From assembly GCA_036898135.1 (NCBI GenBank), contig CM072515.1, forward strand, positions 49,208,534 through 49,272,533: a stretch of 64,000 bases of DNA, given 5' to 3'. A program made the translations under genes and the position numbers. The stretch is from Oncomelania hupensis. Its lineage: Eukaryota; Mollusca; Gastropoda; Littorinimorpha; Pomatiopsidae. Below the pieces are notes generated by a model. The model was not told the DNA's origin, did no database searches, and saw only the letters and a program-made list of their open reading frames with translations. Positions 2,070-43,269 of the stretch are shown here, piece after piece. Within the stretch, counting starts at the first letter, position 1, and each line of letters opens with the position of its first letter.

Positions 2070-2264
2070 GTGAGTTATGTAGAATTTCTTGTTGCAGCTA
2101 AACTTTTTTGATGGCAATATTTTAGAAGACACCTCATTCGTCAGTGCTAATGAAGTTTTCCTTTCAGGATTTGCACTTATGGTACAATGTGTAATAGATA
2201 TATAATTATATTGTTATGTCTGTGAACGCAAATGTTCACCACAATGGATGCAATAATTTTGGAT

Positions 2265-2560
2265 GCTTGTGCCTTTTTAAATGCTGCCCCATTCAACTGG
2301 AGCAATCTCCCCCTTTCTTCGAGAGTGAGACTTTCAAGAGAGCATTGGAGACATATCTGTTTCCCAAAGCCAGCATTAAACTCTAGCCTCTGTGAAACTG
2401 TAAATATTAAGTACGTATGATTCGTTGTTTAAAACACCGGGTGACTGCTTTCATTTCTCTGTAAGTGCATCGAGCATGTTCTCATAGAATATTTGCTCTT
2501 TACAAGACTGAAGTCATCATCATCAACATTCTCATCATATCATCATTATCATGCAGGAAT
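2265..2560 (+). mobile_element. LINE 3' end fragment (L2/CR1-like)
   Basis: One frame resembles the extreme C-terminus of L2/CR1-type reverse transcriptases (a FNWSNLPLS block and a FPKPALNSS block, separated by a frameshift). It is followed by a tail whose end, with a tract TTTACAAGACTGAAGTCATC and ATC repeats, is the usual 3' tail of such LINEs. The element is 5'-truncated and non-functional. It lies just left of the large DNA transposon. Confidence 0.55.
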
Positions 2561-2732
2561 GCAAAACTGAAAGTATTAGTTCAACCCCTTTTGTTTATGG
2601 TTTTGCGCTTACAGGGTAGACTGAGGAAGTGTGATTGTTTAGATTTAGACCAGGCTGACTTTTAATGGACGCATAATAAGGGTTAGTCTTAAATAACGAC
2701 AACTCTTGCAAAACGTTTGAAATCGATTTAAG

Positions 2733-2752
2733 TCCCTTGATACTACAGACAA
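2733..2752 (+). repeat. Left inverted repeat of the YqaJ/THAP element
   Basis: The 20-base core reads TCCCTTGATACTACAGACAA here. The reverse complement of the right end differs only at two adjacent bases. It lies immediately upstream of the SAP-domain coding region, mirroring its partner upstream of the THAP start. Confidence 0.6.
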
Positions 2753-2754
2753 AG

Positions 2755-3142
2755 TTCCGGTCTTTCGTAATTGCGTTTACGTGGAAAACAACGACTGAAC
2801 TGCAAACATATTTGAAAGAAAGAGGAGTGCGCTTCTCCAATCAGCGCAAGACAGAGCTTCAGGATTTATGTAACAATGCAGAAGAGATCGGACTACAAGT
2901 TGATCGAGAAGGAGTGGTCGAAGACCGAGGAGAAGTAATAGAAAAGAAGCTTACCGACGGGAAGACCAAGCTCACGAACCCTAGCCTCCTGAGTGAAAAT
3001 GCTGATATTGGGAGTTTACCGGTTTTTTCAAGCTTTGACATCTGCACATATCTCCTGAGCAACAATGTGCCATTTACCTCGATTCGGGAGTACAAGCAAT
3101 CGGAAGCTTTTACAATGATGGAAGATGGCCACGTCCACTCAG
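2755..3142 (+). CDS. YqaJ-family transposon protein, exon 1 (SAP-like domain)
   Basis: The frame encodes a SAP-like DNA-binding helix pair near its start (TTELQTYLKERGVRFSNQRK, then ELQDLCNNA), followed by a charged linker and a block FDICTYLLSNNVPF. Donor GTACAG is at 3143, phase 1. No in-frame ATG precedes the SAP segment. By alignment with the opposite end of the element, an ATT at about 2769 sits where the THAP gene has its ATG, so the start codon may be lost. This is the N-terminal part of the accessory protein, expected to bind DNA in the nucleus. Confidence 0.65.
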
Positions 3143-3338
3143 GTACAGTTTTCATCTAACTCAGTTCAGAATATCATTAATCATTTGAATGATATGACAT
3201 GTAAATGTAATGAATAAGATTTTGTGTCATGCCACACATTGATGATTGAATAGAAATGATTTGAATGTTTAAATTTAAAAAAACTAACTAATAATTTACA
3301 TTGGGGGAAAAACTCAATACACACTTTTTGCTGTGCAG

Positions 3339-3525
3339 TTGAGGTTATAACACTTGATGAAGTTGGCTACTTTGCCCTGAAGGCAAACGTCAAGCAAAGG
3401 ACATCGACAAGGGATAAAGATCCTGTGAGTGGGAGGTCTGCCTATTCCTGTTGGGCTATTATCACAAATGTGAACACTGACAGCAGAAGCCGAATCTTGT
3501 CAGCTTTTTGCAACTGCAAAGGAGG
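3339..3525 (+). CDS. YqaJ-family transposon protein, exon 2 (SWIM first half)
   Basis: Acceptor GTGCAG ends at 3338 and donor GTAAGT starts at 3526. It joins exon 1 in phase 1 and exon 3 in phase 2 without a break. It encodes a beta-rich segment (DEVGYFALKANVKQ, SCWAIITNV) ending in FCNCKGG, which is the CxC half of a SWIM zinc finger. The open frame across both junctions supports this exon. Confidence 0.7.
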
Positions 3526-3532
3526 GTAAGTA

Positions 3533-3594
<62 letters not shown>

Positions 3595-4037
3595 TTTCCA
3601 CAAGTCTTACATTTTTAAAAAATAAAGTTATGATCAGATTAGAATTTAGATCTGTAGTACTTTAGTAGTTTAGGTAGTCAACTGTATTACTTTTCTTGCC
3701 CTTTGCAGTTGGCTGTAGTTAATTTATCTGCTTTAATTGTATTAAAGTACAGTTTATTCTGTGTTTGTTGAAATGATGCATTAACTAACAATAAATTAAC
3801 GAACAATATTCATGGTGTCCAACGCACACACACACATGGTCTGAATAGTAACTGCATGTGCATACATGTACACATAATCATAAGTACTGTACTCTTTTAC
3901 AGATAGTAATTACAATTTAGGTTTTTAAAATCAACAATAATCTTAATTTTGTGACTGTGAGATTCACAAAGAAGATAATTAAGATGAGTTTCTATTTCAT
4001 CTGTTTTAATTATTTATTTTTGTGATTGGTTCAACAG
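3526..4037 (+). other. Intron in the YqaJ gene with an (ATT)n tract
   Basis: GT...AG intron that splits the SWIM finger. It contains an (ATT)n microsatellite at about 3538-3590 and otherwise AT-rich DNA. Confidence 0.65.
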
Positions 4038-4208
4038 AATGGATGGTTGCTGTCGCCATGTTCTAGCAGCCCTATATGAGGTTGACTTTCTGGAAGACAG
4101 AAGGAAGAGTGTGACAGAAGAAGCCTGTATCTGGCTTCGACGCTGTAAGACCGATACCGCAGCAGTGCTGTTAACTGAAGTGAATACTGGTGATAAATAC
4201 GGTCACAG
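4038..4208 (+). CDS. YqaJ-family transposon protein, exon 3 (SWIM second half)
   Basis: Acceptor AACAG ends at 4037 and donor GTGAGA starts at 4209. The exon begins with the second half of the SWIM finger (CCRHVLAALYEV, giving C-x-H after the earlier C-x-C), followed by a helical segment with EEACIWLRRCKTD. In related transposon proteins a SWIM finger of this kind precedes the YqaJ nuclease. It ends in phase 2 and fits the exon at 5601. Confidence 0.72.
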
Positions 4209-4264
4209 GTGAGAAGGGCAATTTCTTGAGTAAATAGTTATTATATTTACATGTATGTATATAC

Positions 4265-4790
4265 CATAATTTGATGATGATGATGTCTTGTATAGCGCCT
4301 TTTCCATTTCAGTAGATATACTCAATGCATATGCGGAGGGAGGGGAGGAAGTAGGAAGTGTGTGGGGGGGGATCCCCCCCAAAAAGTTGGGGGTAGCCAT
4401 GAGTACACATATATATTTTACAGTTCTGGGGCAAACTTGGTCAAAATGAATTGTTCAAAAGATGCGTTTTCATTGCCTTTTTGATTAAGGACAAACTATT
4501 CCTTTGCTTCAGTGGAAGAGGCAGTGAATTTCAGAGATTCAGAGCAGAATATTTAAAAGCTCTGTAGCCCATAATTTTCTTGTTTGTGTTGCCATCACAG
4601 TTGCTTGATGTTCAAGATCAGGTATAATAATATAGATTACAGGTCTATATGAATCCCATCTGCAATTTGTAGTCAAAGCAAGTGGCACACTAAATCTAAA
4701 ACTGACTCCAGTTTTGCGGAGATAGCAAACCAGAGGACCCAGAGCTTGGACTGAACTTGCACCCATCAGATACTATTGATTAAAAAGCTA
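4265..4790 (-). mobile_element. LINE 3' fragment in a YqaJ-gene intron
   Basis: Read on the minus strand, the sequence ends in GGCGCTATACAAGACATCAT and further ATC repeats, the characteristic 3' tail of L2/CR1-like LINEs. Upstream peptide fragments resemble a decayed C-terminus of reverse transcriptase. It is 5'-truncated and inserted in the intron between the SWIM exon and the YqaJ exon. Confidence 0.5.
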
Positions 4791-5224
4791 GAAGCTAGAG
4801 CCTCTTAGAGTAAAAATGTAAAAGCAAAAAACAAATAAATAAATCACAGCATTTTTTTAATACTATAACTATTCTGTTAAACTTATTATAATCTATTGTG
4901 TGCTTTTTTTATTTTTAAAAATATATAATGTATTGTATGTTGTTTTTTTCTATTTAATACTTTAAAAAATAATAAATCATGAAATGATTTCCAACATATA
5001 TAATACATGCTAGAGCTTTTTAAAAATTGAGCATAATCAATGTATGTGCCCAAAATCAAAAGAGAAAAAATATATTCTGTATTAGAGTTTACTTCCAGCA
5101 TGAATTATAAGCAAGCTAGAGCATTGTTGGAAAACTGAGTATGATGAATAGGTTAAACAAAACACAAACACCAAGAAAAATTAGAAAATTCTGATAAATA
5201 GGACTAGGAGTACTTCCTAAATAG

Positions 5225-5350
5225 CTGTCAACATGTATTTTGTACCGCTTTTCAGGGGAAGCAACTCTCATTGACCTACTTTCTGTTTATGCTGTCAACA
5301 TGTATTGTGTAACCGCATTTCAGGGGAAGCAACCTACTTTCGGTTTATTT
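5225..5350. repeat. Tandem duplication of about 67 bp
   Basis: Two adjacent copies each carry CTGTCAACATGTATT, then TTTCAGGGGAAGCAAC and a TACTTTCKGTTTAT end. The copies are intronic in the YqaJ gene. No function is suggested. Confidence 0.7.
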
Positions 5351-5600
5351 AGGGATAATGCCTATTCTATGATGTATTTTTTCTATTAAATTTTATTTTA
5401 GTCTATTATTTTTTATTTATCATTTCCAGCATTTATTTATAAGAAGCCAGAGCCTTCATTGATGTTCATACTGATTGTGTTGTGTGGATACGCGACAAAA
5501 TGAATCCAAATTTTTATTTTTTTTATTTTATTGTATTTATATTTAGTTTTTAAAATTATTTCTATACATGTATGTATTTAATAATGTATTTTGTTTGCAG

Positions 5601-6292
5601 GGGGCTATGTGCACAAAGACTCAAGCCCACTGAAGATCTCTACAAGCCAGTGCCCATGACAGAGGCGTTGCCGCAGGTGGAGGCGTTCTTTCAAGGTGTC
5701 AAGGAACATCTGCCTAGCAGTTGCATTATGGATATATGGGAACAACGCACAGAGTTGTCTTTAGCACCTCATCTCAGAACAGATAGCCCTTCTATTCTAT
5801 TCGTCTGGCATCTTTCTGCAACAATCACAAATGTTCTGCATCAGACTGTGTATGTGGTAAGCTGTTTTTGCAGAAATTGCAGTACACTTCACTGGAAAGG
5901 GACCTCATTGAAGAAGATACAAGAGGCCAGCACAAGAACACAGTAAGGAGAAGGGGTCTTTTGACAGCTTCTAATATTAAGCGTATTCTGAGTTCGAGGG
6001 ATGAAGCCAGGACTGCTGAGACACTTGCACGTGCAGAAACACATGAGCTCAGTGTTCCAGCAGTTAAATTTGGAAAGAAAAATGAGTCAACAGCACTTCG
6101 GCTTTTTGTCCGCACCCTCAGATACAGGCACAGAAAATGTTCTGTTGAGGTTCCTGGTTTAATTGTGTCACAGGTTAACAGTTTCCTCGCTGGCAGTCCA
6201 GATGCAATTGCCACATGCTCACATTGTGGGAAGTTCGTTGTAGAAATTAAGTGCCTCTACGCAAAGCAAAACTCACACCAGTACCAGGAACA
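5601..6292 (+). pseudogene. YqaJ-like nuclease exon, frameshifted
   Basis: Acceptor TTTGCAG ends at 5600, in phase with exon 3. The first part reads through GLCAQRLKPTEDLYKPVP to about 5800. The frame then shifts by one base, because a Cys/His-rich stretch (CNNHKCSASDCVCGKLF) and the YqaJ domain continue in the other frame. The YqaJ motifs are clear: RRGLLTASNIKRI, an acidic residue in FGKKNEST, the aspartate of GSPDAI (codon 6201-6203), and the VVEIKC pair with Glu at 6243-6245 and Lys at 6249-6251. These match the metal-binding D-(ExK) core of lambda-exonuclease/YqaJ nucleases. The C-terminal part of the fold is short or missing: only a QNSHQYQEQV remnant precedes the repeats. Confidence 0.75.
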
Positions 6293-6299
6293 GGTTGCT

Positions 6300-6830
6300 G
6301 CTGCAACAGCCCCAGCGCCCCAAGACAGCCACTCTCTGCAGCTGCTTGCTGCTGCCGCCCTAACACCTCCCACCAGCCACCTGCTGCCACCGCCCCAACG
6401 CCTAAATACAGCCACTCTCTGCAGCCGCCTGCTGTCACAGTCCCAAAGCCCCAAGACAGCCACTCTCTGCAGCCGCTTGCTGCTGCAGGCCCAACGTCTC
6501 AAGGCAGCCACTCTCTACAGCCGCCTGCTGCCACCGTCTCAACGCCCCAAGACAGCCACTCTCTGCAGCCACTTGCTGCCACAGTCCCAAAGCCCCACAA
6601 AGGCCACTCTCTGCAGATGCCTGTTACTACAACCCCAATGCTCCAAGACAGCAGCTCTCTGCAACCGCCTGTTGCCACGGTTCCAACGCCCCAAGATGGC
6701 CCTTCTCTGCAGCCGCCTACTGCCATAGCCCCTACACCCCAAGGCAGCCATTCTCCGCAGCCACCTGCTGCCAAAGCCCCAGCGCCCCAAGATGGCCCCT
6801 CTCTGCAGCTGCCCGTTGCCACAGCCGCAT
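6300..6830 (+). repeat. 48-bp coding minisatellite between YqaJ and OTU regions
   Basis: About eleven units with a period of exactly 48 bases (16 codons). In the OTU frame they encode variants of PTPQDSHSLQPLAATV. Because the period is a multiple of three and stop codons are absent, several frames on both strands stay open across the array. It forms a Pro/Gln/Ser-rich linker between the nuclease and the OTU region, unless it is spliced out (a possible donor lies near 6292). Confidence 0.85.
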
Positions 6831-6835
6831 CATCC

Positions 6836-7377
6836 ACCATCATTCGCACCAATCCAGATGGAAGATGTTTTTTTCGATGCTTAGCAATAGCTCTTCATGA
6901 TGACCTGAAAGTATGTAAACGAGACCAGAATCATCTACCTGTAACAGAATCTGCCAAAATAAAAGAAGAAGTAGAAGCAGATCGTTTACGTATTCAGACC
7001 GTTGCCTCAGTAAAGGACAATGCGGCTGAACTCGCCATGGACTCATTTGTGCAGCTGAATGCAGACATGCCAAATGCTCCCTTCAAAACTCTTGAAGACA
7101 GGATGAAAATGATGTCTGATCCTAAAACATGTGTTGGAGAGCTTGAAATTGCTTTTGCAAGCAGGTCGTTACAGACACCAATTTTAATTTATGTTGGTGG
7201 TAGCACAAGCATATATGCAAAACAACGCATCCACAGATATGCTTTGGTCAAGAATACTCTGCTGAACCCATTAGTTTGTTGTATCAAACATTTGAAGCCC
7301 AGGAGTCAGGCCACTATGACTTGATTCAAGCTTTTGAGGGGAAAAAACTGACCCGTAAGCGAAAATTGCACTATTAG
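6836..7377 (+). pseudogene. OTU-like cysteine protease domain, frameshifted at the end
   Basis: The frame continues from the repeat array into IIRTNPDGRCFFRCLAIALH, an OTU catalytic-Cys motif (D-G-x-C, Cys codon 6866-6868). Next come helical segments and GELEIAFASRSLQTPILIYV, matching the OTU core. The final OTU block, with PISLLYQTFEAQESGHYDLI and the catalytic His at 7312-7314, is in another frame, so a one-base frameshift lies near 7230-7243. In that frame a stop follows at 7375-7377. OTU domains cleave ubiquitin-like chains. Their use in transposons is known mainly from Helitron-type elements, so the link to a YqaJ protein is unusual. Confidence 0.72.
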
Positions 7378-8898
7378 TGTTAGATAATGTTTACATTTTG
7401 TGTGTGTGTGTGTGTGTTGACACATTCAGTACGAATTGTATTGTAGCTGTGTTTGCTACTTAGTACTATCTTAGTTTCTAGGAGTAAGAAAACAAAATTT
7501 GCTAAAGAAAAATATATAATGGCACTTGGTAGTCCCATTAACAGTAATCAGTCTGGAACAAATAAAATTATAGACAGCCAACGTTTTTTGTACATATATC
7601 TTTTAGTTCTCAAGGTTATGATTTTTATAAACATTTCATGTGGTAATATAGCCAGAATAGACTAGCTATTATTATTATTCTAATCTACAGCTACCGAGTT
7701 GCTGTGTGCTATGGGGAACAACTTGTGTTGGTTCAAAATAACGGTGTCAGACTACTGTATAATGGCTTGACAGCCTACGAAATCTGTATACTATATTATA
7801 AAGCGGCAATTTTTTTTAATTTTTTTATTTTAGGCATTCAGTTAAGTTAAACTGTTTCAATCACTTGCAATTGGATTTTATTTACACTTGCTGGTCTCTG
7901 TGTCACAAAGTTTGATTTGGCTAGGTTGTGTCCATAGATCTTACCGCAAGTGTTGTAGGATTTTTAAGTATGGAGGTGTGCGTGTGCTGGACTGTGATGG
8001 AGAGAACTGGACCGGCGTCATTTTTCCAAAAACTGACGCATTTCCTTTTTTATTTGGCATGGGGGTGTTTGTTATGTACGTGCTTGAGTGTGATACTGAT
8101 AGACAACAGACTGTCGTTTCTCCGATAATTATAGTGAATTTGAAACAGTTATTATTTTGCAATGTATTAATTTTATTTGGCCTAAACGTTGTGTTTTATT
8201 CAAACTTTGAAATTGGCTACTATCTGCGGAGGTGTATATTTGAAATTAATGTCAATGAATTAATCATGTGCAAGGCCAAATGAAAATATTAATGTTTTTA
8301 AGGCAGTTATCACCAATACAAAATGCTGTCAACTGTTTCTGCTTTTTATTTGTTGACAGTGTGATTGTGACTATTACATTGCACATCACAAGTTTGTTTG
8401 TTTTCTTACACACAACACGCACACATAGTCACACATTTGTAAATTATGTTGTGTAAAACGTTCCATCTCCAACAAACAAACCAAGCATAAAACAAAACAC
8501 TGTTCAAGACTGCAATATTTCTTTCTTTTACTGTCAGTATGAACAGATGTGGGTAACTATGTTTGCATCCAATACAAAAAGCAGTTGGGGGAGGGGGGGG
8601 GGGGGGGGGAACCCACTCTTATTGATCCAAATGCTTTACAGGCACAGGCAAATTACATGTTGAGCTTATGAACAATTGATCATGTTTTTAAATTATTATT
8701 AAATTAAAAATACATCCGCGAAGAGAAAAAAAACCGCACACACAATTTTTGAAACTTAGCAAGCTTAGTTGACGTAATGGTACAATGAACAACGTCAACC
8801 AACACATTATTCTAAATCTTTTTAATTTAGCACAATAAATGTAAAGCAATTGCAATTAATACATTGTTTGCAATCCGGTATTTAATATACAGTATTGT
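7378..8898. other. Non-coding interior of the element between its convergent genes
   Basis: AT-rich sequence with a short (GT)n at about 7401-7415, a G-run near 8586-8609 and no convincing coding region. An open frame at 7888-8283 has no recognisable domain. It probably holds the 3' untranslated regions of both genes. Confidence 0.5.
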
Positions 8899-9023
8899 CT
8901 ATCCTATCCTGTCCCGTAACCCGGAGGTCGTAGGGGCACCACAGATGATCGTTTAACCAGCATACTCCATCTTTCTCTGTCCTCAGCAGCCCTGATGGCT
9001 TCGCTCAGTGTCAAACCAGTATC
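8899..9023 (-). mobile_element. 5'-truncated 3' end of LINE family B
   Basis: The reverse complement matches the last ~125 bases of the LINE at 53.0-53.1 kb (ACACTGAGCGAAGCCATC ... GGGTTACGGGACAGGATAGG). It is flanked by perfect 9-bp direct repeats CAGTATTGT at 8890-8898 and 9024-9032, which are target-site duplications. It inserted into the older DNA transposon. Confidence 0.85.
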
Positions 9024-9227
9024 CAGTATTGTAATTGACATCATTTAAACAAAACAGGTCAGAACTTGCAATCAACAAGTAATTAGTAAGTTATTTGTTT
9101 TTCAACATTCTTTTTCCATCCAAAAGGCAAAATATTCTCATAATTCTTTCTATAGCTTGCATACACAAGCAAGTTATAAAACAGCGTCTTTTGTGATCTT
9201 CACATGGCATTTACTGACATTGATTGT

Positions 9228-9890
9228 TTAGCACAAACGCTGCTGCAGATTACACAATACAGTTATGATTGTCAAAATCTGATTCAAAAGAAATCTAAGT
9301 TTTAGAAATATCACACCATGGAGAATCTTAAAAGTTTTCATGCGGCCAATTGCTCGCTCAACCTGTATTCTGACTGAAGCTATCCTCCTGGATAGTTTCA
9401 CTGACTTAGTTGATAGCTGACCACCTCTACTAAAAGCAGGCATGTTAAGAGTTGCTTTCTTTTTCAAAAGTAGGTCTCTAATGTTAAAGCCACGGTCAGC
9501 CATGATGTCATCTCCTTCTTCTAACGTGTGCAGAAAACCACATTTCTCAACAATAGATCTGTCTGAAACTGAGCCAGCATGCACTTTAGATAAGTATGTA
9601 ATTGCCCCTGATGGCATTATTTCAACAAATAGCTTGCCTGTGTTGTAGTGTTTATAATTGCTAAATGTGATTCTCTAGGTCTTTGGGCGAAAAGATTTCT
9701 CAATTCTGAATTCTGTGCAATCGATGATGCATCTAGTTTTAGGAAAGTTCTGAAAACAATCGGGCAAATTCTGACGACAAAGCTCTTTGCTTGGCCACAA
9801 AAGCAGTGGTTTTAAGCACTGATTTAAAACATTAACTTACGTTATGAAAATTCGACTAACATGAGACTGAGAAATGCCAAACAAAAAAGA
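9228..9890 (-). pseudogene. THAP-type transposase, DDE_Tnp_4 catalytic region
   Basis: Reading down the minus strand: a helix-turn-helix block (GISQSHVSRIF), then TRCIIDCTEF with the first catalytic Asp, NYKHYNTGK, MPSGAITYLS, HAGSVSDRSIV, MADRGF with the second Asp, and VERAIGRMK with the Glu. The protein ends CNLQQRLC at 9228. This is the DDE_Tnp_4 fold found in PIF/Harbinger-related and THAP-bearing transposases. An in-frame TAG at 9677-9675 (probably once CAG) and a TAA just after the HTH (about 9840) interrupt it. Confidence 0.8.
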
Positions 9891-9903
9891 TAAGTGTATT
9901 GTG

Positions 9904-10374
9904 TCAAAGCCTCCTAATTCTAACAAGTGTCAATATCACTGCTTCAAATTGCGAAATATTGTATCCACGACAACCTTTGCTGCCCAACCTCCCAGAAACC
10001 ACACTATTTCTTCCACCCCAGTATTTAATGTTACGTGATGCACTGCCTATCCACTGAAAGAGAAATGTAAGGAATACGACAGTGGGAACACCTGTATACT
10101 GAAAACAGGACTGGTCACTTCTCAAAATCATTCTTACAAATGATTGACCAACTATCATCTTCTCTTCTTGAGAACTCAGCTGAATTTGTTCGCCGCATCC
10201 TTTGCATTTGATAGGATCTTTTCCTAACAAAAAGCCTTGTGCGGTTTCCTGCAAAGACTTAGATTCTTTCCTGGTTGTCTGTTCTTGTGAAGTTAAAGAC
10301 TTTTCACCACCAGCACAAGTATGCGACCTTGAATCTCCAGAAGTAGCTGGCAAACCATGCTCTTTGTGGCTCTG
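9904..10374 (-). pseudogene. THAP-type transposase, central exon with Cys motif
   Basis: The acceptor TTTATCAG ends just above 10374; the exon starts QSHKEHGLPATSG in phase 0. It has a C-x2-C motif (CKGCGE), then FQYTGVP, NIKYWGG and VILTLVRIRR, typical of the segment before the DDE core in THAP transposases. A one-base frameshift near 9920 separates it from the HTH/DDE part. Its first residues resemble the two exons at 10880 and 11437, so it is the third member of a multiplied exon set. Confidence 0.72.
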
Positions 10375-10749
10375 CTGATAAACAAGCAAAACAAATATAA
10401 AAATTACCATCTCTGTAAAAATACAAATACAGAATATTGAATCTGCATTTTCTTCAACAAAACAGAAAAAGAAATGAGCCAAATCATAACAACAAAATAT
10501 AAGGTGTGCTTTTGGGTTCTTGGATATTCTATAAATCTATTGTTATAAAATAATACTTTATCTCTCAATGGTCTCTGCTTTTAATTTTATTAACATCCCA
10601 TCCCTTAAAAAAAATCAATGGTCTAACATGAAAACCTTTCTGTTCAAGTTCAAACAATATTCCTTTTTTTCCCAAGCATCCTCAGTATTCCTCCCCATAC
10701 TCTGTGGTTGGTCAAATTGTTTATTCACCTTGTTTAGATAATAATGGTG

Positions 10750-10769
10750 TGAGTGTGTGTGTGTTATGG

Positions 10770-10804
<35 letters not shown>

Positions 10805-10808
10805 AATA

Positions 10809-10868
<60 letters not shown>
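10750..10868 (+). repeat. (GT)n, (GAT)n and (ATT)n microsatellites
   Basis: Adjacent simple repeats: GTGT at about 10750-10764, GAT triplets at about 10768-10803 and ATT triplets at about 10805-10868. They lie in a transposase-gene intron right beside a duplicated exon, and long open frames here are artefacts of the repeats. Confidence 0.9.
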
Positions 10869-10869
<1 letters not shown>

Positions 10870-10879
10870 CTACTTCTAC

Positions 10880-11020
10880 CTGATTGTTGGCAATATTCCA
10901 ATCTTCAACATTTGTAGCAGTAAAAGCAGGCACTGCAAACATAGCATCACCATGCAACTTTGAATCAATGCCTCCAGAGGAAGAAGTCACTGGCAAATCA
11001 CCAAGCCCTTTGTGACCCTG
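10880..11020 (-). CDS. THAP-type transposase, duplicated exon copy 2
   Basis: A 141-base exon between TTTATCAG and GTAGAA encodes QGHKGLGDLPVTSSSGG ... DAMFAVPAFTATNVEDWN. It is nearly the same as the exon at 11437-11580, and the flanking intron sequence is also shared. Both are phase 0 and multiples of three, so either or both copies could be spliced in without frameshift. The function of this segment is unknown. Confidence 0.65.
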
Positions 11021-11436
11021 CTGATAAACAAACAAAACAAAGAGAACTATTACCATCTCCGTAAAAATTACAAATATACAATAGTGACTCTGCATTTCTT
11101 CAACAAGAAAGAAAAGGAAGCTAGCCAAATTGTAACAAAAACAAAAGAACAAAGGTGTGCTTTTGGTAGCTTGGAGTTGGATAATCTATTGTTAATATAT
11201 TTCTCAATGGCCTCTTGTACTTTTATCCCTCCACCTCCCTCCCTCCCCTCCCACCCTCCACCCAATCTATGGTCTAGCAGGAAAACCTTCCTGTCAATTT
11301 TCAAACAAAATACCTTTTCTTCCCTATCACCCTCAGCATCCCTACCCTGTGGTTGGTAAAATTGTTTATTCACTTTGTTTAGATAATTCAGGTGTGTGTA
11401 TGTGTTTATGAGTTTTATTAATGCTCCTGCTATTAC

Positions 11437-11580
11437 CTGATGGTTGGCAGTATTCCAATCTTCATTAACATTTGTAGCTGTAAAAGCAGGCACTGCAAAC
11501 ATAACATCTCCATGCAACCTGGAATCAGTTCCTCCAGAGGAAGATGTAGCAGGCAAATCCCCATACGTTTTGTGGCCCTG
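11437..11580 (-). CDS. THAP-type transposase, duplicated exon copy 1
   Basis: A 144-base exon, acceptor TTTATCAG above 11580, donor GTAATA at 11436. It encodes QGHKTYGDLPATSSSGG ... FTATNVNEDWNTANHQ and differs from the neighbouring copy by one extra codon and a few substitutions. It joins the preceding exon (11770-11910) in phase 0. Confidence 0.68.
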
Positions 11581-11769
11581 CTGATAAACAAGCAAAACAA
11601 AGAAACATTATCATCTCCGTAAAAATTACAAATATAACATACTGAATCTGCATTTCTTGAAGTAGATATAATGAGAAATTAAAAAAAGCTGGAGAAAGAT
11701 TTGTCTATACAACCACTTTTGTACCTACCAAGCCCCTTAAAAAAAAATATCTAAAATCTTATGTCATAC

Positions 11770-11910
11770 CTGATATAGTTTTCGTTTTTTTAATGCTTCT
11801 TTAACTGGGACTTGGAAACGTGAGGCTGGGTCTTTTCTTTTTCTTGTGGGTTGTCCAATAGCTGGGAGAGGGTCTGGGTTCTGCTCTGTAGGCTTCCCAT
11901 CAATAAAATG
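11770..11910 (-). CDS. THAP-type transposase, exon 2
   Basis: A 141-base exon between ATTTCAG and GTATGA on the minus strand, phase 0 at both ends. It begins HFIDGKPT, which supplies the His of the THAP C2CH zinc site after CSK in exon 1. It continues with a basic stretch (RKRKDPASRF, KKRKLYQ) that could act as a nuclear signal. Confidence 0.75.
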
Positions 11911-12365
11911 CTGAAATGATATAAAAGCAAATTATTTCTCTTTGAAGAGCCCTAGGCTGGATGGAATGGGAAAAATTTAAATAAGATTCGCTGGAGACAG
12001 ACACGCGCACATTATTATAATATAAGCCTATCACAAGAACGAAACCATGAAAGTGATAGGCCTACTAGTTTAGTTACATAGTGACTGCCAAAGTCGGTAG
12101 CATTTATTTAGCTAACGGCCCACTTACTTCGTTTGATATGCATTCAATGATAGCTATGGATTGAAAGTTATATTCTAAACAGCGGCACCGATCAAGATGA
12201 TTATTATTTAGATTTAAAATATTAAGATTGGTGCTCGGTGGCCGTCGAAATCATACTGGTAACATGATGCAAAATCTGTTTTAAAAAAAACTTTGTTAGA
12301 AGACAGCAAACCTTCATAATGCCATGATAGAAAACATTTTTTTTAAAAGAAGTACTTTTACTTAC

Positions 12366-12630
12366 TTTACTGCATACACATGTGTAGCCCCTCAGAGTAT
12401 TAACGTTCAAGTGCTCATGTGCCATGATGTGGACGACCGCATGCTTTTATCCAATTCAGGGACCGTTCGAGATGATAATTATATTTTCCAGGTTTTACAA
12501 AGGGAATAAATTCTACTCCTAAACATCTCTCCGGGTAACGACTGTCAGAATTACAGGTTCCCCAGGCACAGCGTTTTATCGTTCCTCTTTTTTTGAATTT
12601 TGCCGCACTCAAACTTACATTAGTTGCCAT
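12366..12630 (-). pseudogene. THAP-type transposase, exon 1 (THAP domain)
   Basis: The ATG at 12630-12628 follows the right inverted repeat. The frame starts MATNVSLSAAKFKKRG and shows the THAP Cys pair (KRCAWGTC), FIPFVKPGK, LNWIKACGRPH. A small insertion near 12425-12435 shifts the frame, after which EHLNVNTLRGYTCVCSK completes the domain before donor GTAAGT at 12365. THAP is a C2CH zinc DNA-binding domain that recognises transposon ends. With the frameshift, this copy cannot make an intact transposase. Confidence 0.78.
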
Positions 12631-12647
12631 TACCGTGATTACGATTC

Positions 12648-12667
12648 TTGTCTGGGGTATCAAGGGA
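12648..12667 (-). repeat. Right inverted repeat of the YqaJ/THAP element
   Basis: The reverse complement is TCCCTTGATACCCCAGACAA and matches 2733-2752 at 18 of 20 positions. Similarity continues more loosely outward (AAATAAC blocks about 30-45 bases further out on both sides). Confidence 0.6.
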
Positions 12668-12962
12668 AGTCACTCTCTTCAACTCTATGCAGAGTTATTT
12701 CGGGATATGCCTAATTGTGTAAGTTAAAGCGACAGATATTTTCATGCATAAATCCATGCAAAAGAAAAAAAAATCATGCAAGTGAAAGTGTACAGAAAAT
12801 ATAAATATTTAAGATATATTACATTCAAACATATAATGCTATCTGCTAATGAAATTTAACCGTGCTAGGAAAAGCTTCTTCTCTGCATTTTCAGGACAAA
12901 TGTAATTTGCTGCTCTTAAGTGCTACTAAACACACTGATAGAAATTTGCTTTATGTCTCCAG

Positions 12963-27233: not shown

Positions 27234-27660
27234 TCTCTGAGCGAACATAGTCACTTTCAAGGCCAAATTAAAAACTATTATTTTCCTTAACAATTTCTGA
27301 CCTCTCTCCCATCACTATCATCATGCCTTCTTTTCTGATTCAGACCACTGCCGTCACGCCAAAAGAACTGCTGATGACTGAAAAAGATGGAGTACGCTGG
27401 TTAAACGATCACATGTGGTGCCCTTGCGACTTTCGAGTTACGGGATGGGATAGAATAGGGTAGGCACACCTCACGCCCCAGCCCCCTCACTCCTTAGCTG
27501 CTCTCCCTCTCCCTCGTCTTTTATATTTTACTTGTACATTTTTTTCATGTTTGTATTATGTTTTTGTATAATTTATTAGTGTCTTGTTTTTATCACTTCT
27601 TTTCGTTTGTATTTCGATATTAACGTTAAGTCAAGGAGTACTGAAATGCGTGTGAAAAGC
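26950..27660 (+). mobile_element. LINE 3' fragment with internal (CT)n expansion
   Basis: The frame has SSDTLMLQILRYNVSSAGCR followed by SFSVLGPS, the C-terminus of an L2-like LINE. The normal continuation is replaced by a (CT)n tract at about 27160-27229, and the sequence resumes downstream (KLKT-like end, then a 3'UTR ending GTGTGAAAAGCGCTTAGA). A LINE-B tail has inserted inside it at 27361-27470. Confidence 0.65.
27361..27470 (+). mobile_element. 5'-truncated 3' end of LINE family B
   Basis: It matches the end of the LINE at 53.1 kb (AAAGATGGAGTACGCTGG ... GAGTTACGGGATGGGATAG). It is flanked by TCACGCC direct repeats at 27354-27360 and 27471-27477, a 7-bp target-site duplication. Confidence 0.75.
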
Positions 27661-28006: not shown

Positions 28007-29290
28007 TTATGTTTCTTTAGTGTCATCATCGCTGTCTACCTCTTGAATAAAAGGCCCAGAACTTCCTTGGGTTTCTTCTTTCTGATAGGTTTGGTACGCG
28101 GAGTTCAAGAGCTCTGTTGTGCGAGCGAGTGCCGCTTTCATGGTTTCTCTTTCAATTTGGCGCTTTTCGTGAAGCAGCTGAAAGAACATGAACATATCAG
28201 TCTTCACCCTCTCCTCCATTTTAGCTCTTGCATCCCGTTGTTCTTTTAGATCACCCTTGTGTTCTTTCTTCAACTCGTCAATTTCTTCTCTGTGAATCTT
28301 TTCCATTTTCCGTTCTTTGCTGTCGAACGATTTCTGCATGCTTGCTATCTTGTCTTTCAGGTCCTGCACCTCCTTTCCGTGCATTTTGTTCAATGCTTCA
28401 ATAGTCGTCATGTCACCTCTAACTTTTTTCAGTTCTGTTTTGCTGTTCTCGCTTTCACTTTTTATTTTAGAACTCTTCTCTTTCTCCAGTTTCAGTTCCT
28501 GCTCTAAGGCAGCAGCAGTACTGTCAGCTGACGCTTTCTGTGATTTCAATTGGCTTACTTCCTTGGACAGCACGGTTTTGTCCTTGCTGAATTCTGCTAC
28601 TTTTTTGCGCAGCTGTTCCAACTCAATTTCCTTTTTGGAGACCTGGCGATGGATGGCATCTTTCTCTGCAAGTATTTTATCTCTTTCTTCTTTCAGCTGT
28701 GAGATTTCTCGTACTTTTTTTTCCATCTCGGATTCTAAAGTTGTAACCTTTTTGTTCAAGATGCTCATGTTCTCGGCATGGTGGTGGAGTTTTGCTTCAT
28801 GCTGTATTTTAAGATCTTCAAGATCCCTGATCTTTCTGCTTTTCTCCTCAATTTCATTCTTTAAAAACCTTACAGCTTCTGAAGCAACTTCAAACTTTGA
28901 TCTGTAGTCTTGAAGTTCTGACCGAATCCGAGCACCGTTTTCTTTTTCACGTTTAACTTCTTCTTCAAAATCTCTGTTTTGTTCTTGTAATGTTTGCAAC
29001 TCAGACGTAAAGTTCTTTTGTTTTTCTATCAACGATCTGTTTTTGGACTTTGTATCACTCAGTTCGAGTTCTAAATTCGCCAGCTGGGTTAACATGTTCC
29101 GCTTTTCTTCACCTTTTCCTGAATTTCCTAGCTTCTCCCACAAATATTTTTTCAGTGCCGAAGCCCCTCCAGAACCAGAATTGTAAACGTGTGATCCTGC
29201 ACCAGATTGGTGTGATAGCCTAGAGTCGTCTGACTCTCGATTTTCTTCACCATCCCAGTTGGGTTTATAGTAGTCGTCACTACCGGACAT
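28007..29290 (-). CDS. Long coiled-coil protein 1, 427 aa, intronless
   Basis: Uninterrupted ATG-to-stop frame. Residues 1-60 are a Ser/Gly/Asp-rich head (MSGSDDYYKPNWDGEEN, SGSGGASALKKYLWEKLG). Residues about 65-375 are almost continuous heptad coiled coil rich in Glu, Lys and Leu. A segment with MFMFFQLLHEKRQIERE follows, and the end is an acidic tail (QEVDSDDDTKET). No enzymatic domain, signal peptide or membrane segment is seen. TTCGTTTCAG about 30 bases upstream of the ATG could be a splice acceptor of a 5'UTR intron. A similar kind of ORF lies 11 kb away on the same strand. The coiled coil suggests a filament, scaffold or oligomerisation role; function unknown. Confidence 0.78.
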   Translation of the reverse strand: MSGSDDYYKPNWDGEENRESDDSRLSHQSGAGSHVYNSGSGGASALKKYLWEKLGNSGKGEEKRNMLTQLANLELELSDTKSKNRSLIEKQKNFTSELQTLQEQNRDFEEEVKREKENGARIRSELQDYRSKFEVASEAVRFLKNEIEEKSRKIRDLEDLKIQHEAKLHHHAENMSILNKKVTTLESEMEKKVREISQLKEERDKILAEKDAIHRQVSKKEIELEQLRKKVAEFSKDKTVLSKEVSQLKSQKASADSTAAALEQELKLEKEKSSKIKSESENSKTELKKVRGDMTTIEALNKMHGKEVQDLKDKIASMQKSFDSKERKMEKIHREEIDELKKEHKGDLKEQRDARAKMEERVKTDMFMFFQLLHEKRQIERETMKAALARTTELLNSAYQTYQKEETQGSSGPFIQEVDSDDDTKET

Positions 29291-29372
29291 CGTTGAATCG
29301 TTGTCTACTCGATAGTTCTGAAACGAATAGATCTAATTTGTATTCAGATAGGATCGCATTATATTTTGTAAA

Positions 29373-29959: not shown

Positions 29960-30851
29960 TGTTACGTTGAAACGCACACGATAGTTCGTGTGTGACGCGC
30001 GCGATAGATCCGTTCGTTTTATTTTGCAAGGCATGCAATAATAGAGTACCTTTGATTTGATTTTGCGTTGTTATTAGAAGAAGCTTTGTATAACGTTGAT
30101 AATTTTAGTTGCTCGATATTATTTGAGAATTTTCTCGAGTCAGCTGTTTACTATCGATCGAAGCGTATGGATAGTTCTAGTAGTAACCATGGAAGCTTCC
30201 ATTCCAAATAGGGTTGTATGACGTGAGACAGTGATGATGAAATTACTTTTGATTAATTGTGGTGTTTCATGTACACGATGACCTGCTTACAGTGGTGAAG
30301 AAACGGAAACTCCGATGGTATGGCCATGTCACCAGATCATCAGGCCTTGCAAAGACTATTCTGCAAGGCACAGTGTAAGCAGGTAGAAGAAGAGGGAGAC
30401 CGAAAAAGAGGTGGGAGGACAACATTCGAGAATGGACTGGTTTGACACTGAGCGAAGCCATCAGGGCTGCTGAGGATAGAGAAAGATGGAGTATGCTGGT
30501 TAAACGATCATCTGTGGTGCCCCTACGACCTCCGGGTTACGGGACAGGATAGGATATGATAGGTGTTTCATGTGGGGTATTCTCGCTTGTTCTGGAGTAT
30601 GTAGAGACTATATAAGTGCCGCACTGTTTCAAAAAGAGAGAGAGAGAGTTGAAAGTAAAAAGTTGAGAGTGGAAAAAGCGATTGTTTGCAGTGTTGATGT
30701 ATGCTGAATAAAGTTGGAAAACTACATACGAAGACTTTGCCTTGTTGCTGAGTGAGCAGACTGCGTGGATAAACGAATCTGGGTTACACTTTATCAGGTT
30801 TCAAGCATCGGGGCTGAATCAACTGATAAAAAAACAACATCGAGTGTAACA
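29960..30851 (+). repeat. 5' LTR of Ty3/gypsy copy 1
   Basis: It starts TGTTACGTTGAAACGC and ends CGAGTGTAACA, with a 5-bp target duplication CGGTC at 29955-29959 matched at 35495-35499. It is 892 bases long because a LINE-B tail inserted at 30273-30561; without it, it is about 590. A TATA-like ACTATATAAGTG is at about 30607-30618. Confidence 0.93.
30273..30561 (+). mobile_element. LINE family B 3' end inside the 5' LTR
   Basis: The 289-base 5'-truncated insert matches the LINE C-terminal coding end at 52.85-53.12 kb (GAAACGGAAACTCCGATGGT ... GGGACAGGATAGG). Perfect 12-bp direct repeats GGTGTTTCATGT flank it (30261-30272 and 30562-30573). The 3' LTR lacks the insert, so it arrived after the gypsy element. 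Confidence 0.93.
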
Positions 30852-31354: not shown

Positions 31355-32083
31355 ATGGCTGACTTCTGGCAGAAAGGGATTGAACTGAATCTGAAAGGCA
31401 AGCAGCTGACGGAGTACGTCAAGTCTCAGGAGAGAATACAAGAACGAGAATAAGAAGAACGACGGCGTGAAGAAAGAGAATTAGAGGAGCAGCGACGCAG
31501 AGAAGAAAAGGAAGAACAGCGTCACCGGGAAGAAAGAGAAGAACAGCGTCGGCGAGAAGAAAGAGAGTTCGAGCTGAAGCGTCTTGAAGGTGAGCGTCAG
31601 TACCAGCTAGAGTTGGCGCGTATCCAAAACAATCAGCATGCGCCATAAGTCATCAGCGACCACATGGCTCCAAAATTGCCAGCGTTCGTCGACGGGAAGG
31701 ACCAGATCGACAGTTATCTGGCGAGATTCGAGAGGTTCGCCGAAAGCTCCAACTGGCAACCTCGAGACTGGGCGATTCGGCTAAGTGCACTTCTGACGGG
31801 GCAAGCACTCAAAGTTTACACCAGACTGTCGAACGATGATGCCAAAAACTACGACGTCTTGAAAGAGGCCCTATTGCATTGCTACAGTTTTACAGAGAAG
31901 GGCTACCGTAAACGCTTCCGTGAGTGCCGGCCTTTGTCAGACGAGACACCAAAGCAATTTGTGGAGCGCCTGTCGTCATACTTACACAAGTGGGTGGAAC
32001 TTTCAGGCAAAGGGAAGTCTTACGATAGTCTCCATGACCTGATCGTGAAGGAGGCGGTTCTCCAATCAACGGCAAACCAGTAG
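31355..32083 (+). pseudogene. Ty3/gypsy gag, degraded (copy 1)
   Basis: The reading frame opens at ATG 31355 with an N-terminal segment (MADFWQKGIELNLKGKQ) and an Arg/Glu-rich coiled coil. In-frame TAA codons lie at 31451-31453 and 31646-31648. After the second stop, ATG 31664 starts the typical gag core: KLPAFVDGKDQIDSYLARFE, IRLSALLTGQALKVY, GYRKRFRECRPL, HDLIVKE. The frame ends at 32083 before any zinc knuckle, so the nucleocapsid part appears deleted. Confidence 0.85.
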
Positions 32084-32096
32084 ATCTGACCATCAG

Positions 32097-32729
32097 GTGT
32101 GCGGAGGGAGCGTCATTCTTCCGAGTGAGACCGAGCGCACAGCTACTCCTGCGGACGTGCAAGAGTGCATGACCGATGGCCAACTTCTCCTTGCCAACGG
32201 GAAATCCATCCCCGTCGCCGCCAGCGCAGCTGTGACAGTACAGAACATGCCCGTTTCCAAGGGACGCGTCGGAAATCACGAAGTGACTGTCCTAAGAGAC
32301 TCGCGCTGCAGTGGGGTCATCGTCAGAGAAGATCTAATCGCTAAAGAACAGTTTACTGGCGATTCTAAATGGACACTCATGGCCGACAGCAAATGTGTGA
32401 AAGCGCCAGTTGCGAAAGTTCAAGTCAGCACCCCTTTCTACATAGGCGAAGTCGAAGCGGTTTGCCTGAAGAAGCCGCTGTATGATTTGATGATCGGGAA
32501 TATCGACGGCGCGAGACGACCCGACGACCCCAATTCAGAATGGAGTCCTGCCTCAACCCAACGTGTCGAAGTTGTGGAGGAGGATCCATTGCCATTTCCC
32601 GATGGAGACCTTACAGAGCTGCTACGGGACAATGTGGCTACTCCGGCTCAGCCCTGCCGATCAGAGATCGTCGGTGCTGTCACTACCAGGGGGCCCAGGC
32701 CAAGAGAGACAAGACGTCTACGCCACTGA
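32097..32729 (+). pseudogene. Ty3/gypsy protease region (copy 1)
   Basis: The frame contains VTVLRDSRCSGVIVREDL at the position of the aspartic protease active site. The usual D-S/T-G reads D-S-R here, so activity is doubtful. Downstream, KVQVSTPFYIGEVEAVCLKK and YDLMIGNIDGARRP match the flap and end of such proteases. The segment is also present in copy 2 from about 42882. Confidence 0.75.
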
Positions 32730-32789
32730 AGGTCGCCGACAACTCCAAAGCTGCCATCGTGGACAGCAGCTCCATGAAGCTGATAGCAC

Positions 32790-33950
32790 TTTAAACAAGT
32801 ACAGGAACCGCCAAGACCACGTGACCAAGGGCAGTGGTACGGTCTATTTCGAGGTGAAGGCCAAGATCCTGTACCGAATCTTCCAGCACCCGAGGGTCAA
32901 CGGAGGGAAACCACTACGTCAAGTCTTGGTACCGTTACCCTTAAGGCGCCAGGTGATGGAAGTAGCGCATGACTCAATCATGGGAGGTCACCTGGGTATC
33001 AAGAAGACGTCGGATAGAATCCAGGCGGTGTTCTACTGGCCAGGACTTTATGCGGACGTCAGCCGTTTCTGCCGATCATGTGACATTTGCCAGAAGACCA
33101 TACCTCAAGGAAGTGTCCCGAAAGTACCTATGCAGAGGATGCCTTTGATCGACCGACCTTTCAAGAGGGTGGCCTTTGACTTAATCGGCGAAGTAGGACC
33201 TCCGAGTGAAGAACGTCATCGATGGGTACTGACTTTAGTGGACTATGCGACTCGGTACCCAGAAGCAGTGCCACTGAAGAAGATTGACACTGAAACTGTA
33301 GCAGAGGCACTGGTGGACATGTTCAGTAGACTTGGAGAGCCTGAAGAAATTCTGACAGACCTCGGGACGCAGTTCGTCTCTGACTGCATGAAGGAGGTCA
33401 ACAGACTGCTGAGCATCCGGCATTTAACTACGACGCCTTACCATCCGATGTGCAACGGGCTTGTCGAAAAGTTCAATGCTACGCTGAAGTCCACCCTGAA
33501 GAAACTGTGCAGCGAGCAGCCCAGACAATGGCATCGCTACATCAACGCCTTACTGTTCGACTACAGAGAAGTGCCGCAGGAGTCCACCGGCTTTTCTCCG
33601 TTCGAGCTGCTATACGGAAGAACCATCAGAGGGCCGATGCACATCCTGAAAGAACTGTGGACGAAAGAAGTAGAGACCCCCAGAGGTGAAGAACAGCTAC
33701 CAGTACGTGTTTGAGCTACGGGAGAAGCTGGAGCAGACTCTCGAGATAGCCAGTGAAAACCTGAAGAAGTCCCAAGACTGTGGAAAGCACTACTACGATC
33801 GTAGGGCTGTGAACAGGAAGTTCAAACCTGGCAACAAAGTGCTGGTGCTGCTACCTACTGATCATAATAAGTTGCTGATGCAGTGGAAAGGCCCGTACGA
33901 AGTGGAGTTGTTGTTGTTGTTGTATCAAATTTTATTCATCAGATTAACAT
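32790..33950 (+). pseudogene. Ty3/gypsy integrase (copy 1), located before RT
   Basis: The frame has an H2C2 zinc site (HDSIMGGHLGIKK ... CRSCDICQK) and the DDE core: Asp in AFDLIGEVG, Asp in ILTDLGTQF, Glu in NGLVEKFN. Then come the ALLFDYREVPQESTGFSPFE block and a GPY/F module (GNKVLVLLPTDHNKLLMQW, KGPYEV), reached after a frame change near 33690. A (TTG)n-rich insertion at about 33905-33965 truncates the end. Its position upstream of RT is unusual for Ty3/gypsy. Confidence 0.88.
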
Positions 33951-33959
33951 AAGTTGTAC

Positions 33960-34731
33960 TGATTTAAAATACGAAGATGAAGTTAAGCTAAGACCATGCT
34001 TGACGGAAGGTCAAAAGTTGGAGCTCAAGGACCTTATGGGCGAGTTTCCCCATAGCTTCAACGATGTCCCAGGCTCTACGACTTTGGTCGAACATGAAGT
34101 CCACCTCACTTCAAATATCCCCGTTCGATCCGAACCCTTCTTGATCCCTTTTATAGCCCGTGAATCCTTGAAGAAAGGCATCGAGATCACCGTCTTCGAC
34201 CCCGAGCCGATGCCTACTGCAGCAGACCTCTTCCGCCAATTATCGGGGAGCAAAATATTCTCGAAGATTGACCTCAGCAAGGGTTACTGGCAAGTCCCCG
34301 TGCGTCAACAGGACATACCAAAGACTGCTTTTATAACTCCTGATGGGGCGTACGAGTGCCTAAGGATGCCCTTTGGCATGGTCAACAGCGGAGCTACCCC
34401 GAAGACAAGGATGAAGAAGATGCTCAAAGGAATGGACAGTGTCGTGTGTTACTGGGACGACCTGCTAGTCAACACCCAGACCTGGAGGGAGCATCTGCAG
34501 ACCTTAAGGAAGCTTTTTCACCATCTTCAAGAGGCCAACCTGACCGTGAGACCCAGCAAGTGCATTCTGGGTGCTGACAACGTCGACTTCATCGAACATT
34601 CCATGGAAGAAGGAGACAACGGAGGATGCACTGACTCCAGGAAAGCCCACGAGATCACTGTCTTTGACCCTGGGCCGATGACAACCGTAACAGACGAGGG
34701 CGTCGTTTCCTTGCGGATGAAAGAACATTGA
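33960..34731 (+). pseudogene. Ty3/gypsy reverse transcriptase (copy 1), internally deleted
   Basis: RT motifs are LTEGQKLELKDLMGEFPHSF, FSKIDLSKGYWQVPVRQQD, TAFITPDGAYECLRMPFGMV and the catalytic box VCYWDDLLV (Y-W-D-D where Y-I-D-D is usual). A block between SLKKGIE and ITVFDPEP, which normally carries the fingers with the VDYR motif, is missing. After KCILGADNVDF the frame degenerates, and RNase H is absent before the 3' LTR. Confidence 0.87.
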
Positions 34732-39945: not shown

Positions 39946-40374
39946 ATAATGTATAATAATGTTCGTTATTTGTAAAGCGCCTTAGCCTAAGGATCAAGGC
40001 GCTGGCCGATACAGGATCTAACTCAAACCGCTCGAGACGCCCACCCGCAGCCTTTGGGCGCATAGTCTGACGCCCGGACAACTGAGCACAATCCTGGGCA
40101 GCCGGGGATGGGGGAGAAGGACCAAGTGCATGCTGGGTGTGTTATTGTTACCGGCACTCATCCGTCTAGGACATGAGCGTCAGGATCTTTAAAGTCCGTT
40201 ATGATGGAATGTATGCGACACACAGACTAGACCTCGGTTTATACTCTCATCCGAAGGAGTAGGAAAACAGGAGTAAAGTGTCTTTCCCAGGGACACAACA
40301 CAATGGCCCGGCCTGGGCTCGAACCCGGGACCTTCAGATCCGCAAGCCGAAGCACTACCATTAGACCACAGTGC
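39946..40374 (-). mobile_element. tRNA-derived SINE
   Basis: The head on the minus strand reads GCACTGTGGTCTAATGGTAG (pol III A box TGGTCTAATGG) and then GGTTCGAGCCC (B box) at tRNA-like spacing. The body of about 430 bases ends in AAGGCGCTTTACAAATAACG and an AT-rich tail, a LINE-like 3' end. AAGAAG direct repeats flank it (40375-40380, 39940-39945). Confidence 0.85.
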
Positions 40375-41557: not shown

Positions 41558-41754
41558 TTTGACGATATAGAAGTATTCCTTTCAAGTTGTTCTGGCAATA
41601 AGCAAACGTTGGAATGACGACCAGGCTGACCTTGGAGTTGATCGCTTGAAATATATTTTCTGAAATAGAACAATGCGATCCTACCAGTTTTCATCTTTTA
41701 ATAATCTTACAAAACATTTTTTTCCCTTCAAATATACCATCAAACGTGCTAATA

Positions 41755-42445: not shown

Positions 42446-42881
42446 GACATATAGGACTGAACGATGTTATTTCAAAAATAACGTATTATCTCGGAGGTTT
42501 AATATAAATAGTTGTCAACTAGAGATTAACATTACGTATTGGTTTCATTAAAATAATCGAACAAAACCAAGGTTATATGACGCACGTCATATTCTCGACT
42601 CTTTTAATGTGCCTTTGTCAGTGGCATATTACGCTAGTGGCTATGTGCATGAAGAAACAATCCACATGCCTTAAACTTATCCCCCAAAACTAATACCAGC
42701 ACAGTACATATATGCAATTTTACAAATTCCAATCAAGTTGCTCAGCTACATCTTGATATGACATTTTAAAAGTACAACTGTCTTTTAGCAACGAATCGAT
42801 TTACCTCGGAAGAACTCTGAAAAGAGATCATTCCAGACCCTTACGCCAATGACATCATTTTGCGTTCTATACACAGTTGCA

Positions 42882-43230
42882 AAGATTCAAGTCAGCACCA
42901 CTTTCAACGTTGGAGAAGTAGAAGCGGTTTGCTTGAAGAAGCCGCTGTACGATTTGATGATCGAGAATATCGACAGCGCGACACGACCCCGACGACCCCG
43001 ATCCAGAGTGGAGTCCTGCCTCAACTCAACACGTCGAGGTTGCGGAAGAGGATCCATTCCTTTTTCCCGATGGAGACATTACAGAGCTGCTACGAGATAA
43101 TGTGCCTACTCAGGCTCAGCCCTGCCGACCAGAGATCGTCGTGCTGTAACTACCAGGACCCAGGCCAAGAGAGACAAGACGACTACGTCATTGAAGGTCG
43201 CCGACAGCTCCAAAGCCACCATCGTGGACA
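42882..43230 (+). pseudogene. Ty3/gypsy protease end (copy 2)
   Basis: The frame begins at the KIQVSTTFNVGEVEAVCLKK block seen in copy 1, continues with LYDLMIENIDSATRP, and then breaks through small indels. The active-site part is missing. Confidence 0.75.
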
Positions 43231-43269
43231 GAGGTAAGCTAATCCAGCTCTAGGAAGCTGATAGTACTT

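Follow-up and report, generated by a model that had tools for sequence, protein, structure and literature searches.

An inactive ISL2EU-like transposon in an intron of Oncomelania hupensis with a probable OTU protease domain behind its YqaJ nuclease part

Introduction

Does an intron of a C2H2 zinc-finger gene in the gastropod Oncomelania hupensis hold a single two-gene transposon, and what did the second gene of that element encode? These questions are raised by a 64,000-nucleotide (nt) stretch of contig CM072515.1 (assembly GCA_036898135.1, positions 49,208,534 to 49,272,533 of the forward strand), referred to here as the window; all positions given below are window positions. The original prediction, made from the letters alone, was an ISL2EU-type transposon consisting of a YqaJ gene and a THAP-DDE transposase gene. 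We now consider it quite probable that the intron contains an old, inactive ISL2EU-like cut-and-paste transposon and that the YqaJ helper protein of its ancestor carried a C-terminal OTU domain as one of its parts. Judging from the sequence, the copy looks like a dead member of a seemingly new OTU-bearing variant of ISL2EU-like elements. The kind of element had thus been recognized mostly correctly, whereas the prediction was silent or wrong on its activity (both genes are broken), on its ends (the inverted match is subterminal) and on the OTU domain, which had been overlooked together with the minisatellite in front of it.

In Han et al. (2015; PMC4482050) and in PMC9179366, ISL2EU elements are described as combining a transposase that has THAP, helix-turn-helix (HTH) and DDE parts with a YqaJ protein. 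According to the former, they are a group of the PHIS transposons with the target duplication AT in A|AT|T, terminal inverted repeats that usually start with GG and a mean length of about 4.8 kb (PMC4482050).

Gene content of the element

The intron contains two convergent spliced genes, as had been predicted, with splice sites of the GT..AG type and Pfam domains on the joined exons of both; the Pfam search of the two exon sets placed SWIM, THAP, DDE_Tnp_4 and OTU above their cut-offs. The two-gene plan, the domains with their key residues and the broken state of the copy can be read directly from the DNA. The whole element and the exons of its minus-strand transposase gene are as follows.

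2680..12711, no strand: whole element, 10,032 bp, with its most likely ends (GG starts; AAATAAC at nt 12-18 from each end)
12366..12630, minus strand: transposase exon 1, ATG and most of THAP, with a frame break near 12425
11770..11910, minus strand: second transposase exon (141 nt), completing THAP, GT/AG junctions
11437..11577, minus strand: transposase exon 3, linker, 141 nt, GT/AG junctions
10880..11017, minus strand: transposase exon 4, duplicate copy of the linker, 138 nt, GT/AG junctions
9228..10371, minus strand: last transposase exon, carrying HTH plus a DDE_Tnp_4 part whose D, D and E are present, broken by stops and a frame change

On the joined transposase pieces, THAP (E 8e-6) and DDE_Tnp_4 (6e-38) passed their cut-offs and HTH_Tnp_4 (8.3e-4) remained below its own; from one single frame, DDE_Tnp_4 still reaches 1.9e-34. 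The joined pieces were scanned after removal of a GTAAGT...CAG stretch (near 9840-9819), which has since been rejected as an intron of the last exon, being about 22 nt long and breaking the frame when removed. At 141, 141 and 138 nt, the inner exons are all multiples of three, so that the frame is kept. Within 10339-11661, exons 3 and 4 with their flanking intron are duplicates of each other, 84% identical over 258 columns, and a further partial copy, at 74-79% identity, comprises the start of the last exon and the intron preceding it. Besides the break in THAP, the gene is interrupted by a frame change near 9910 and by in-frame stops at 9837-9839 and 9675-9677.

The plus-strand gene was compared with relatives obtained by protein searches, two of them with the YqaJ part and one with the OTU part. 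Prominent in what follows is P0001, a protein predicted from Littorina saxatilis and 845 amino acids long, with the order SWIM-YqaJ-OTU and a complete YqaJ domain (53% identity over 56% of the window query); its SWIM domain scores 19.3, just short of the cut-off at 19.6. The parts of the gene are these.

2680..3142, plus strand: YqaJ-gene exon 1, 54% identical to P0001 over 2794-3135
3339..3525, plus strand: YqaJ-gene exon 2, first SWIM cysteines, from the SWIM Pfam match on joined exons
4038..4208, plus strand: YqaJ-gene exon 3, SWIM CCRH, matching P0001
5601..7377, plus strand: YqaJ-gene exon 4 with linker, YqaJ, minisatellite and OTU, with internal frame changes, ending at the stop codon of the OTU-tail frame
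5796..6278, plus strand: YqaJ nuclease part, 57% identical to P0001
6298..6826, plus strand: 48-bp (16-codon) minisatellite between YqaJ and OTU, from repeat analysis
6836..7345 (limits approximate), plus strand: OTU cysteine protease domain, from Cys and His codons, Pfam and tblastn

P0001 matched the window in five tblastn pieces (33-63% identity), and the N-terminus encoded by exon 1 aligns with it. SWIM passed its cut-off on the joined exons (E 1.1e-4), and YqaJ (PF09588) was found with E 2.1e-7 on the single-frame stretch 5787-6368. The conserved YqaJ residues D (6201-6203), E (6243-6245) and K (6249-6251), which we take to be catalytic, are kept. The SAP domain that had also been assigned to this gene was not upheld: in the window its Pfam match had an E value of 0.14-0.15 over 16 residues, and no SAP match was found up to E 10 in the four relatives P0001, P0007, P0009 and P0010. 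The reading frame shifts near 5800, again within the minisatellite and again somewhere from 7225 to 7312, and the first Met in the frame of exon 1 is residue 146, so the gene is without a start ATG. A supposed 17-nt intron near 5850 was discarded, since P0001 matches both sides of it in two overlapping frames. Because of the frame breaks, stops and late first Met, this copy cannot yield either protein of the element intact, and it is dead.

Ends of the element

Outward similarity of the two ends, followed in a global alignment, reaches GGGTTAGTCTTAAATAAC (2680) and GGCATATCCCGAAATAAC (12711, other strand). The terminal inverted repeats are imperfect and gapped, and both start with GG (GGGTTAG.../GGCATAT...). 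The following short features belong to the ends.

2677..2679, no strand: left candidate target duplication TAA, read directly
12712..12714, no strand: right candidate target duplication TAA, read directly
2733..2752, plus strand: left subterminal inverted arm, 18/20 match to the right arm
12648..12667, minus strand: right subterminal inverted arm, 18/20 match to the left arm

The arms had been taken for the inverted ends of the element; the count of 18 matching bases in 20 was exact, whereas their place is subterminal, not terminal. When 1981 pairs of 151-bp stretches were drawn at random from the window, 12 of them equalled the local score of this inverted match, so that the match by itself is modest evidence, above chance and not decisive. 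The case for the ends therefore rests, besides the inverted match, on position, spacing and gene content. TAA lies directly outside the GG/CC ends on both sides of this single copy; where the DNA is rich in A+T, an agreement of three bases is weak evidence. The AT of A|AT|T would fit if the ends lay 2 nt further out (AAGGG.../...GCCTA).

That the intron holds two host genes, or unrelated genes paired by chance, and not one element, is highly improbable. The similar ends enclose both genes, the candidate target duplication flanks these ends, and THAP-DDE with YqaJ is the pair published for ISL2EU (PMC4482050 and PMC9179366). All of this comes from a single copy of the element, a point to which we return below.

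Between the two genes lies a nested 121-bp repeat (8900..9020), 99% identical to the window at about 30436-30556, which suggests that it arrived late relative to the decay of the element. It belongs to a family of repeats of about 120 bp, found in the window at 8900-9020, about 27368-27458, 30436-30556 and 53005-53124. Rfam, searched at gathering scores with the whole 64-kb window, gave no match, and the inner end motif had no match in viral contigs.

The OTU domain

The YqaJ exon continues via the 48-bp minisatellite into the OTU domain. The Cys codon is at 6866-6868 (NPDGRCFFR) and the His codon at 7312-7314 (GHYD) in a different frame; the Cys region was aligned with five relatives, and the His, outside the aligned stretch, was placed by eye. 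By tblastn, the five OTU relatives matched the window within 6809-7225 in one frame. With one frame alone, the Pfam family PF02338 (OTU) fell short of its cut-off (E 0.0017); with the second frame added behind an X, it passed (3.7e-6). A profile of the OTU relatives and the window, compared with solved structures, matched OTU domain-containing protein 2 (5.9e-5, C-terminal half of the domain), which is presumably yeast Otu2. The predicted structure of P0002, used as a stand-in for the OTU type of the window, had a mean predicted local distance difference test score (pLDDT) of 75.3, with averages of 83-96 for ten-residue blocks in residues 51-210. Reading on beyond YqaJ in its own frame meets no stop before 6728, which lies within the array. 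Where the array begins, in the YqaJ frame, and where it finishes, in the OTU frame, the repeat peptide has one and the same register.

The two YqaJ searches, in which 7996 and 7991 candidates were scored (those sharing most words), yielded six distinct proteins; with just under 8000 candidates scored in each, little can be concluded from the lack of additional relatives. Four of the six contain YqaJ, the predicted proteins P0007 and P0010 ending before it. Two of these four, P0001 and P0008 (a partial predicted protein on a 3.5-kb contig, YqaJ-OTU), have the order YqaJ, repetitive linker, OTU, whereas the predictions P0009 and P0011 stop soon after YqaJ without OTU. The fusion is thus present in two other predicted proteins. 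Compared with solved exonucleases, a profile of the relatives matched 3syy (1.4e-4) and lambda exonuclease 1avq (0.0097); with four relatives in the profile, exonucleases came up at no better than E 0.01. The pattern of the YqaJ family fitted 49 stretches of viral contigs, none of which encodes a relative.

In the OTU protein search, the window OTU grouped with P0002-P0006. P0003 (Batillaria attramentaria) has the same OTU lineage as the window beside a DDE_1 transposase part, P0004 and P0006 have it beside a PHD finger, and P0002 and P0005 have no domain apart from the OTU/otubain type. Littorina and Batillaria are both caenogastropods. The occurrence of window-type OTU beside DDE_1 and PHD fingers hints at an OTU module common to transposon types.

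The OTU domain of P0001 and P0008 apparently belongs to another lineage than that of the window, since the two groups can be aligned only at the level of profiles (hhalign probability 87.5, E 3.6e-6, 16% identity). Three histories would account for this: replacement of the domain, two captures at one place, or a very large divergence of the two. One explanation of the window OTU is a later disruptive insertion from another OTU-bearing mobile element into the YqaJ gene of this copy, which would have truncated the YqaJ C-terminus and would not be a working part of the family. This explanation draws on the difference in lineage, on the DDE_1 part and PHD fingers of P0003, P0004 and P0006, and on the fact that the C-terminal QxQ part of YqaJ, invariant in four aligned relatives, is absent from the window copy: tblastn with P0001, P0008 and P0009 at E 1e-3 gave no match past 6311. 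In addition, no codon-position bias was found among the differences of nine minisatellite units, so that nothing in the array points to selection on a coding sequence. We nevertheless regard an insertion as rather unlikely: the same order of YqaJ, repetitive linker and OTU recurs in P0001 and P0008, the array keeps its reading register (by luck, a chance of one in three), and no inverted-repeat pair brackets 6290-7377 among the 25 longest of 96 pairs.

The missing QxQ part and the unbiased array just described also count against our preferred reading, in which the OTU domain was a part of the ancestral YqaJ helper. Further points that weigh against it are that a single copy underlies it, that the candidate duplication is TAA and not the AT of ISL2EU, that the window OTU piece alone gave weak matches to solved structures (E 0.6-0.75) and that the genes of P0001 and P0008 are only presumed to lie in transposons.

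As another alternative, the OTU domain might be ancestral to this YqaJ lineage with no separate capture, the window and Littorina domains having diverged past easy alignment. Position and kind of linker are alike in P0001, P0008 and the window, and both groups are OTU by Pfam. This seems doubtful to us because the best solved matches differ, OTUD3 (4bou, 0.0078) for P0008 and OTU domain-containing protein 2 for the window group, both being weak guides, and because the SWIM-YqaJ parts of the window and P0001 are 58% identical over the aligned part, yet BLASTP of P0001 against the array-OTU frame of the window gave as its best a 13-residue match (E 0.35). We tentatively suggest, as a possibility falling somewhat short of an even chance, that ISL2EU-like transposons of molluscs captured OTU at least two times, each time at the C-terminus of YqaJ and behind a tandem-repeat linker.

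Host gene and other features of the window

2070..12962, plus strand: host intron holding the element, GT at 2070 and AG at 12961-12962, flanking exons joined in phase

The predicted splice coordinates of the host gene were right: when the exons ending at 2069 and starting at 12963 are spliced, they join in phase and their translation makes a C2H2 finger, and the joined piece has six zf-C2H2 matches in Pfam. A transposon within an intron is ordinary, and that the host gene tolerates a 10-kb element is unsurprising; taken by itself, the locus is one dead intronic insertion of an ordinary kind.

Elsewhere in the window, frames resembling Gypsy-type long terminal repeat (LTR) retrotransposons were seen by eye at 31649-34731 and 42821-44977; they look like pieces of gag, integrase and reverse transcriptase, the integrase-like frame preceding the reverse transcriptase-like one in 31649-34731. 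Fragments resembling the reverse transcriptase of non-LTR retrotransposons were noted, likewise by eye, at 47981-50454 and 52230-53119. Two long single-exon frames of the minus strand, 28007-29332 (441 amino acids) and 40361-41581 (406 amino acids), appear coiled-coil-like by eye.

Discussion

How the intact ancestor may have worked can be outlined in steps that we infer from knowledge of the family. The THAP/HTH transposase would have attached to the subterminal repeats and, by means of its DDE triad, would have cleaved the ends and linked them to target DNA rich in A+T. The SWIM-YqaJ partner, a putative lambda-exonuclease-like nuclease with a zinc-binding part, would have processed or bound DNA ends. 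The C-terminal OTU domain would have acted as a deubiquitinase, most likely keeping the proteins of the element, or repair factors nearby, from being removed by way of ubiquitin. We know of no explanation for the presence of a lambda-exonuclease-like YqaJ protein in ISL2EU elements. A deubiquitinase fused to YqaJ points to the ubiquitin or repair system of the host as a partner, which can be assayed, and P0001 represents an unbroken predicted gastropod version of the YqaJ-OTU protein. If OTU was indeed captured repeatedly, deubiquitination would be a recurrent addition to YqaJ, comparable to the OTU/Ulp1 domains of Ginger1 and the OTU/VTD domains of Helitrons.

In one open-access library, no paper was found that names ISL2EU with OTU or that brings YqaJ, ovarian tumor and transposon together, and PMC12730594 mentions neither OTU nor YqaJ; the fusion may be recorded in Repbase.

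Among the known systems, ISL2EU is similar to the element in its THAP, HTH and DDE transposase, its protein with a YqaJ exonuclease domain, its GG ends and its animal host. The original assignment to this type thus stands for the coding content and the GG ends, whereas the most direct candidate for a target duplication is TAA instead of AT, the length of 10.0 kb is about twice the published mean, the YqaJ protein bears an OTU domain and both proteins are broken. The authors of PMC9179366 knew in 2022 of no proof of ISL2EU activity. PIF/Harbinger elements share a DDE_Tnp_4-type transposase and two genes, and the candidate duplication TAA would fit their target duplication TWA; their published partner is a Myb/SANT protein, whereas the partner here is YqaJ and the transposase contains THAP. 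No Myb/SANT match was found in the window pieces scanned with Pfam.

Ginger1 likewise has an OTU protease domain at the C-terminus of one of its proteins, a DNA transposon in which this domain is part of the integrase-like transposase and not, as here, of a YqaJ protein. PMC2836005 states that a given Ginger1 bears either OTU or Ulp1, with OTU in Hydra, Aplysia and aphid, and its authors proposed that these domains act on DNA-repair factors. Helentrons and VTD-bearing Helitrons similarly carry OTU proteases, in some replacing another class of deubiquitinase (PMC4067079 and PMC9741609); they are rolling-circle elements with a RepHel protein in the place of the DDE transposase. The Helitron VTD domains were proposed to protect transposition proteins from the proteasome (PMC9741609) and the Helentron OTU either to take part in chromatin signalling or to cleave the protein of the element itself (PMC4067079). 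The Littorina saxatilis protein P0001 resembles the YqaJ protein of the window in its order of SWIM, YqaJ, repeat linker and OTU and differs from it in its complete YqaJ domain and in the apparently separate lineage of its OTU. If our reading is true, the O. hupensis element would represent a third kind of DNA transposon with OTU, beside Ginger1 and the Helentrons in print.

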